Shown here piece by piece: positions 36,744 to 38,469 of a stretch of 49,711 nt of DNA; the first letter of the stretch is position 1; each line of letters opens with the position of its first letter. The notes below the pieces were generated by a model, which was not told the DNA's origin, made no database searches, and was given only the letters and a program-made list of their open reading frames with translations. Origin of the DNA: Prochlorococcus sp. AG-409-L14 (GTDB taxonomy: Bacteria > Cyanobacteriota > Cyanobacteriia > PCC-6307 > Cyanobiaceae); the NCBI GenBank assembly GCA_003215545.1, contig QCKF01000009.1, forward strand, positions 1-49,711, written 5' to 3'. A program made the position numbers and the translations under genes.

Positions 36744-37274
36744 TTAATTCCTTCTTCTACTGGAGCGAGGCAAAGATCTTCTATCAGTTCTTTTTGGATT
36801 TCTATTCGAATTAGTTTCTCTGGAAGAATTAGTATTCTCATTAACTTGATCACGGCTCCACCTTTCTACACGAAAAGATTCTTCTTCAGGCCATTGGTCC
36901 TCATCCCTTAAGGGTGCTTCAGAAGTATCAGAGATATTTAAAAGACCAGGGTTTGGATGACTAAGACGCCTAGAAATTGCCTTTAGAGGCCTTTTGGCAG
37001 TATTAGAGGTCGTTTCAGGTTTTGATTGCCAAGGTTCCAACCAATCATCCTCATCTTCTAAAAGCCAATCAATTTTATCTCCAACCCATCTACCAACATT
37101 GTCAAAACTTGAACTTGAAATAGAAATAGGCTGAATAGGCTTTCTTCTTCCAGGACGATTTCCAGAAACACCGTCAACAAATTGACGCCCTGTCTCAATC
37201 CATTTATCCAACCTGATATCAAATTGGTCCTTTGATCTTAAATTTCTCTGAAAACTTCGATGATCTAAACCCAT
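36744..37274 (-). CDS. Basic low-complexity hypothetical protein
   Basis: A 176-residue protein without a family I recognise. The N-terminal half is moderately conserved-looking: FDIRLDKWIETGRQFVDGVS, then SFDNVGRWVGDKIDWLLEDE and DDWLEPWQSKP, with an acidic-Trp cluster. The C-terminal third is Arg/Ser/Asn-rich and disordered, ending in RSLPRSSRRRN, a possible nucleic-acid-binding tail. It is the last gene of a leftward run after the SprT-like gene and a possible 32-codon ORF, 3 nt downstream of the latter. It converges with the chorismate-lyase gene. Confidence 0.75.
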   Translation of the reverse strand: MGLDHRSFQRNLRSKDQFDIRLDKWIETGRQFVDGVSGNRPGRRKPIQPISISSSSFDNVGRWVGDKIDWLLEDEDDWLEPWQSKPETTSNTAKRPLKAISRRLSHPNPGLLNISDTSEAPLRDEDQWPEEESFRVERWSRDQVNENTNSSRETNSNRNPKRTDRRSLPRSSRRRN

Positions 37275-37277
37275 AAT

Positions 37278-37376
37278 TCAATTACCTCTTTTTCTTTGAA
37301 AAGAACTATCCATCTGACAGCCAATGAGAGCAATTGAGATACCACTGAGTTCAAGTACTAAAAAAAACAAATCCAA
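37278..37376 (-). CDS. Candidate 32-residue membrane protein
   Basis: A short ORF in the 103-bp spacer between the SprT-like gene and the basic protein gene. It starts at TTG 37376 with GAGGAGG at 37383-37389 and 6 nt spacing, the best ribosome-binding site noticed in the window. The peptide begins LDLFFLVLELSGISIALIGC, one hydrophobic helix long enough to cross a membrane, followed by a polar, basic tail (QMDSSFQRKRGN). It begins 1 nt after the upstream stop and ends 3 nt before the next ATG, so it fills the spacer exactly. Size and shape resemble the small single-helix subunits of photosynthetic complexes, but it matches none I can recall. Coding is likely but unproven. Confidence 0.5.
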   Translation of the reverse strand: MDLFFLVLELSGISIALIGCQMDSSFQRKRGN

Positions 37377-37377
37377 T

Positions 37378-37926
37378 TCAAGCCTCCTCTAGAACAGGCT
37401 CATAACTCAATAAGCAACTTGGATGCCAATGACCACCGTAATGAATTTCACAACATTTCCTACAAGCAGCTCCGCGAACAAGCCTTTTGTAGGGAAGTCG
37501 AGCACTACAAGAAGGACATACCGCCCACCACTTAGGCAATGATTTAGGTGTAGGAAACTGATGCCTGATAGTTACCTGAAACCTATTCTGAGCAGCGTTT
37601 ATTGCAGCCATACGCCTACGAAAATTAATACCATGAACTTCCTCTACTCTCAAAACCAAATCAATCCATCCATGAATCATCTCATGGCACAGGGTGCTTT
37701 CAATCGCTGTCACAGGAAGATTCTCCAAAAGAGGTCTGGATAAAACAATCTCTGAAGCATTAGGACCTTCTACCATTGGTCCACGACGATATAAGCCTGC
37801 TGTCTTCCTTAATCGACCATCACTCCATCGAACAGAAATCAAAGCAGTTGATCCAACGGCAAGCTGACCTAAAAAAAACTCTCTATTAAAAGAATGAAAA
37901 ATTGGTAACAGAGGAATTAATGGCAT
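37378..37926 (-). CDS. SprT-like zinc metalloprotein
   Basis: A 182-residue protein of the SprT-like (WLM/Spartan-related) superfamily. The zincin motif is CHEMIHGWIDL near residue 81, with a further His in EEVHGINFRRRMAAIN that fits the third zinc ligand. A C-terminal zinc ribbon has two Cys pairs, CPSC and CRKC. SprT relatives include proteases of DNA-protein crosslinks in eukaryotes; the bacterial role is unclear. ATG 37926 is preferred to the adjacent TTG 37929. It is divergent from the 38047 gene (120 bp) and heads a leftward run of up to three genes. Confidence 0.85.
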   Translation of the reverse strand: MPLIPLLPIFHSFNREFFLGQLAVGSTALISVRWSDGRLRKTAGLYRRGPMVEGPNASEIVLSRPLLENLPVTAIESTLCHEMIHGWIDLVLRVEEVHGINFRRRMAAINAAQNRFQVTIRHQFPTPKSLPKWWAVCPSCSARLPYKRLVRGAACRKCCEIHYGGHWHPSCLLSYEPVLEEA

Positions 37927-38046
37927 CAACCCAGTTGTGGAAGTGATCTTGCAGTCGCTCTGACAGTCTGCCTAAAAACAGTTGGTTCTGAAACCTACAT
38001 TTCGCCAGTCAGTAAGTCAGACTGTTTAACCAGTTGCTATCTGTCA

Positions 38047-38469
38047 ATGGATGGGGCCCTTGTCAAAGAGATTGGTACCAAAGCGCTTCTCATAGGTGCT
38101 GGTTCCCTTTTACTCTTCTGGACAATAAATGCTGTCAAACTTGTCATCAGCGCAAGAGGGATAAATCCTCTTGTCAAAAAATTCTTTAATCAGATTGCCG
38201 CGGGAAGAATTGATGCTGCCTATCTTTTGACAACAAAAACTTATAGGCAACATGTAAGCAGGCAAGATTTCCTTAAATTTCTATCTGGTCTTCAGCTAAA
38301 CAGATACAGAAATTTAAAATCAGGACGTCCTCGTATCCAAGACCAAGAAATAATTCTTACCTTAAAACTTAAATCTGAAGACAAAAAGAATGAGTTACCA
38401 TTGGATTTTACGTTTACAAAAGTGGATGAATCCTGGAGAATAGATAGAATCGCTAAAGTGACCTCATAA
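38047..38469 (+). CDS. Membrane-anchored hypothetical protein (DUF4864-like)
   Basis: A 140-residue protein with one N-terminal membrane segment (ALLIGAGSLLLFWTINAVKL). The soluble part is a small alpha/beta domain with NPLVKKFFNQIAAGRIDAAY, YRQHVSRQDFLKFLSGL and a C-terminal DFTFTKVDESWRIDRIAKV. This resembles the DUF4864 / NTF2-like fold in which a helix pair is followed by a beta-sheet. The family call is tentative. It lies 27 bp before ligA on the same strand. Confidence 0.75.
   Translation: MDGALVKEIGTKALLIGAGSLLLFWTINAVKLVISARGINPLVKKFFNQIAAGRIDAAYLLTTKTYRQHVSRQDFLKFLSGLQLNRYRNLKSGRPRIQDQEIILTLKLKSEDKKNELPLDFTFTKVDESWRIDRIAKVTS

Follow-up and report, generated by a model that had tools for sequence, protein, structure and literature searches.

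Between an SprT-like peptidase gene and its downstream neighbour, the stretch of Prochlorococcus sp. AG-409-L14 DNA analysed here (49,711 nt, hereafter the window) contains a short spacer that is filled by a single small open reading frame. The locus raises the question of whether this frame encodes a protein that picocyanobacteria have inherited and kept and, if so, what kind of protein it is. The features concerned are the following.

36744..37274, minus strand: downstream gene, encoding a protein predicted to be mostly disordered, which carries short conserved motifs and belongs to no known family
37278..37376, minus strand, stop included: small gene with a TTG start, predicted to encode a 32-residue single-pass membrane protein (from profile, frame selection and helical periodicity)
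37378..37929, minus strand: gene for an SprT-like zinc metallopeptidase with an intact HExxH and a zinc ribbon (PF10263, PF17283), the conserved upstream neighbour
37383..37389, minus strand: GAGGAGG, similar to a Shine-Dalgarno sequence, located 6 nt upstream of the TTG within the 3' end of the SprT-like gene

The original prediction described a spacer-filling ORF with a TTG start, a GAGGAGG at 6 nt and gaps of 1 and 3 nt to its neighbours, and this arrangement was confirmed on the minus strand. The stop codon of the SprT-like gene ends at 37378, leaving one nucleotide (37377) before the TTG at 37376; the TGA stop of the small ORF ends at 37278, and the ATG of the downstream gene follows after 3 nt, at 37274. 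The product reads MDLFFLVLELSGISIALIGCQMDSSFQRKRGN, and the plus strand across 37278-37376 is interrupted by stops. The GAGGAGG forms part of the final sense codons of the SprT-like gene. Good ribosome-binding sites had been described as rare in the window; for GAGGAGG as such, rarity was not supported by a simple motif count (4 occurrences observed across the window vs 3.9 expected). With a motif as common as expected, the case for a gene rests on comparison with relatives. The ORF alone is also unremarkable: spacers of 100 nt not infrequently contain an open frame this long, which, together with the divergence of the C-terminal half of the window's copy, would favour a chance ORF without function. 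A search of the spacer for terminators and promoters yielded nothing exceeding shuffled sequences, and no RNA element in Rfam matched within 2 kb of the small gene.

Distribution of the small gene and selection on its frame

When the SprT-like protein was used as a query, 361 of 400 Cyanobiaceae genomes proved to encode it, and the spacer 3' of sprT was read in about 90 loci; the window's genus is represented by one genome in the genome sample. Most Prochlorococcus-like spacers encode a peptide of the form MDLFLWVLQLSGVSIALIGWQREHWLQRRRR, and these copies start at the sprT stop or a few nt away from it. In GC-rich Synechococcus/Cyanobium-like genomes the peptide is found up to about 240 nt 3' of the sprT stop, in any frame. 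Divergent syntenic homologues were also present in three further Cyanobiaceae genera (e.g., MAEFLGGILVSGWVISAIGLWRESQLRR...), in which F, SG, I, G and RE are kept and a GTG or TTG start overlaps the sprT stop. Where present, the small gene adjoins the same SprT-like gene at every locus read. A natural fusion with sprT was considered and rejected, as the long open frames around the GC-rich copies are not in the sprT frame in the loci read.

A profile of the small protein matched 130 of 201 Cyanobiaceae genomes (88/130 of the near-complete ones). When the profile was built without the window's copy (profile A3), it found the window ORF with E=1.1e-9, as the sole match in its own genome. No strong profile matches were obtained outside Cyanobiaceae in the class-wide sample, and the 8 matches there, from about 250 genomes and with E values of 0.008-0.05, are at chance level. 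A match in G452 was not accepted as a homologue, since it is located at 127 kb and the SprT-like gene of G452 at 2.4 Mb. In the genomes sampled, the small gene is restricted to Cyanobiaceae. A phage origin was likewise rejected, with no homologue in phage genomes and nothing beyond noise in PHROGs.

Alignment across Prochlorococcus and Synechococcus, which had been proposed as a check, revealed purifying selection in the predicted frame and none in the other two. Among 64 distinct coding sequences, the start codon lies exactly at position 1 in 63 (ATG 31, GTG 16, TTG 16) and the length is exactly 31 codons in 52. The median pairwise dN/dS of these sequences was 0.27; for close pairs within a genus it was mostly 0 to 0.18, including examples with a dS of 0.29-0.65 and a dN of 0. 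In its own frame the mean pS was 0.76 and the mean pN 0.29, whereas the two values were equal in frame +1 (pS 0.39, pN 0.40) and reversed in frame +2 (pS 0.28, pN 0.44). Shine-Dalgarno-like matches precede most of the AT-rich members that start with GTG or TTG, and a match is seen at the corresponding place in only 4 of the 19 loci without the small gene; in relatives, such sequences track the presence of the small gene.

The ORF stands above chance because of the independent profile match, the linkage to sprT in relatives and the purifying selection in its own frame only. A functionless chance ORF, contradicted by the profile match, the fixed start and length, the dN/dS and the helical periodicity described below, is hardly credible. 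These sequence comparisons indicate that the ORF is a real, inherited picocyanobacterial (Cyanobiaceae) gene for a predicted single-helix membrane protein of 31-32 residues.

The window's copy and lineages without the gene

The window's copy keeps the TTG start, the Shine-Dalgarno-like sequence, the membrane half and the stop, and F4, L8, G12, I15 and G19 are present. Its C-terminal end is CQMDSSFQRKRGN vs WQREHWLQRRRR in the others, and with M22-D23 it is the sole one of the 64 distinct coding sequences that lacks R22-E23. Compared with 20 Prochlorococcus-type members, codons 2-20 are constrained as usual (pN 0.18), whereas the final 11 codons are relaxed (pN 0.45 vs about 0.2). We treat this copy as a diverged member of the sprT-linked family, as its profile match, position, start and length agree with the others; R22-E23 is a conserved feature and is not required for orthology. 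The copy may have an altered function or may be in early decay.

Several lineages, streamlined Prochlorococcus among them, are without an intact small gene. One such group is the small genomes of genus g18, which we take to be probably high-light Prochlorococcus; in three loci of this genus (L130, L131 and L132), an apparent decayed remnant, LDVFLFLYLELFIFLM followed by stops, is seen after sprT. Two in-frame stops interrupt the remnant in L105, the traces in L088 and L089 are read as frameshifted remnants, and L134, L143 and L144 are further Cyanobiaceae members without the small gene. When presence was mapped on an SprT tree, a quick tree with many weak forks, 7 changes were needed, and absence was clustered but not confined to one clade. 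Stops or frameshifts beside intact flanking genes had been named as observations that would speak against the gene. They do occur, but only in particular lineages, as secondary losses. In genomes that have lost the small gene, its two neighbours, sprT and the downstream gene, are still present. The small gene looks ancestral in Cyanobiaceae, dispensable and lost several times.

Predicted helix and comparison with known small proteins

Residues 3-20 of the window protein are hydrophobic, with a mean Kyte-Doolittle value of 2.26 over 18 residues, and the mean for the protein family is 2.0 over 18 residues. The N-terminal charge is about -1, and the C-terminal net charge is +4 on average and +2 in the window copy. 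AlphaFold predicts one helix at residues 2-27, with a mean pLDDT of 93 over the first 20 residues. The expected architecture, one hydrophobic helix followed by a short basic tail, was borne out by this hydropathy, these charges and the predicted helix. By the positive-inside rule, we infer from the acidic or neutral N-terminus and the basic C-terminus that the small protein is oriented N-out/C-in. A short hydrophobic helix with a basic tail would also suit a type I toxin-like membrane peptide. With one fixed inherited place by sprT, a single match in the window's genome, long-term purifying selection, no Rfam match within 2 kb and no phage homologue, we give almost no credence to this reading.

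G12, I15 and G19 were found in 64/64 sequences, R22 and E23 in 63/64, and F4 and L26 in 62/64. The positional entropy is periodic at 100 degrees per residue, and none of 20,000 position shuffles gave a periodicity as strong. The near-invariant residues F4, L8, G12, I15, G19, R22, E23 and L26 share one helix face. Conservation of one face with a helical period is the pattern expected of a helix with one packing face.

Single sequences of the small protein gave no match in Pfam or NCBIfam, and profile A2 gave no PDB match up to E=10; the remark that the peptide resembles nothing familiar thus holds for these three resources. As far as the family libraries and open papers go, the term undescribed also seems apt, and some genome records may list the product as a "hypothetical protein". 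The suggested likeness to small photosystem or cytochrome b6f subunits stands for size and topology and extends to no other property, and membership of a complex is putative. A known photosystem, b6f or NDH-1 subunit was rejected, as no sequence similarity was detected in Pfam, NCBIfam or PDB.

PetL (PF05115) shares with the small protein a length of 31 aa, one helix, a basic C-terminal end and probably the same orientation, and it is dispensable (PMC10161378), as the small protein appears to be. PF05115 was detected in 60 of 96 cyanobacterial genomes and in none of the 8 Cyanobiaceae of the sample, which fits the published absence of petL from freshwater picocyanobacteria, where it was reported missing from Syn/Pro strains (PMC10161378). 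One possible interpretation is that the small protein replaces PetL in the picocyanobacterial b6f, as a functional stand-in or as an extremely diverged PetL, and the failure to detect PetL in Cyanobiaceae, together with the shared length, helix, basic end and dispensability, would agree with this. We consider it very unlikely. There is no profile similarity between the two (hhalign probability 0.5%) and no match among solved PDB chains. PetL keeps Y7, A18, L21 and K29 and mostly ends in LRAVKLI, whereas the small protein keeps G12, I15, G19, R22, E23 and L26 and ends in arginines, without the K.LI-type C-terminal end. The two occur in different clades, but one clade-wide complementary pattern is weak, and the small gene is not linked to pet genes. 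The corresponding history, in which picocyanobacteria lost PetL, the small protein took its place in b6f and was later dropped in the most streamlined Prochlorococcus, is to be regarded with the same strong doubt.

A model for a peptide that regulates a complex is SliP4, presumably the same protein as HliR1. Cells without SliP4 are impaired in cyclic electron flow (PMC12850537). HliR1 (37 aa, Synechocystis) is a single-helix small protein like ours, but its gene is located upstream of sodB with no link to sprT, and no homologues were reported beyond Synechocystis (PMC5126843). Norf4 of Synechocystis is also a conserved protein of 31 aa with one predicted membrane region that was once missed by annotation; unlike the small protein, it is acidic (pI 5.6), its gene overlaps gap1 and it was reported to be lacking in alpha-cyanobacteria (PMC5126843). 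Its 5' primer, ATGACCGCCGATCAACTGTTG, reads MTADQLL (PMC5126843). Identity with Norf4 was rejected by this N-terminus, the gap1 neighbourhood and the absence from alpha-cyanobacteria, the small gene adjoining sprT instead. Psb30/Ycf12 (PF05969) is another small one-helix thylakoid protein. Of 9 picocyanobacterial genomes tested, 8 carry it elsewhere (over the cut-off in 5), and it was rejected as a separate gene whose Pfam family does not match the small protein. For P. marinus, the part on photosynthesis in a screen for small membrane proteins mentions no photosystem or b6f subunits other than known ones, and nothing else (PMC10903887).

Neighbouring genes and possible role

The HExxH and CxxC pairs of the SprT-like protein are intact in 86/86 relatives. 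The gene was seen in nearly all sampled Cyanobiaceae and in one genome outside the family in the class sample, and it may be a Cyanobiaceae-specific acquisition. The downstream protein has the motifs RQ.VDGV.G.RPG.R, GRW...DWLLEDEDDW, RPL.AISRR, WP......W.R and LPRSSRRR and a low-confidence AlphaFold model; it has no homologue outside Cyanobiaceae in the class sample and matches no known family. On the other side of sprT, a divergently oriented gene (38047-38469, plus strand) encodes a protein of 140 aa that is hydrophobic over a stretch near its N-terminus and for which DUF4864 scored 19.9 bits, below the 27.1 cut-off. In the class samples, sprT, the small gene and the downstream gene are essentially a family-specific cassette.

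This essentially family-specific trio, a gene order kept across the family and the stop-start contact or overlap with sprT would be accounted for if the small protein were a membrane tether or regulator of the SprT-like peptidase or of the downstream motif protein, acting via coupled translation to bring a neighbour to the membrane or to limit its activity. We regard this as unlikely, though worth keeping in mind. Where the small gene is lost, both neighbours are kept and HExxH is intact, which argues against strict dependence, and the small gene lies at varying distances from sprT, as far away as about 240 nt. The position between two genes, with the window copy ending 3 nt before the downstream ATG, would similarly suit a leader peptide or coupling device, in which translation and not the product controls the downstream gene. 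This seems most improbable in view of the strong selection at the amino-acid level and the conserved helix face; moreover, the distance to both neighbours varies, and the downstream gene persists without the small gene.

The reading that we favour, and hold to be somewhat more probable than its alternatives taken together, is that of a real Cyanobiaceae gene coupled to sprT, whose N-out/C-in product is a dispensable accessory subunit or regulator packing on a partner helix. Translation of the small protein would be coupled to that of sprT where its start coincides with the sprT stop or is only a few nt away; in the window, the Shine-Dalgarno-like sequence inside the 3' end of sprT and the start 1 nt past its stop would serve this coupling. 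Tight coupling is unlikely in the GC-rich members with a start up to about 240 nt past the sprT stop. The protein would insert N-out/C-in, its conserved face may pack against a transmembrane helix of a partner protein, and R22-E23 would be placed near the cytoplasmic membrane edge. It may serve a larger membrane protein or complex as an accessory subunit that can be dispensed with, or regulate it locally. A homo-oligomer would yield the same conserved face, and the partner helix is a guess.

The small gene is family-wide, clearly selected and missing from the family libraries searched. Its repeated loss makes its presence or absence a natural experiment, and the small family offers a handful of residues as targets for mutation. 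The finding thereby poses a defined question, namely whether the picocyanobacterial b6f or another membrane complex contains the small protein.
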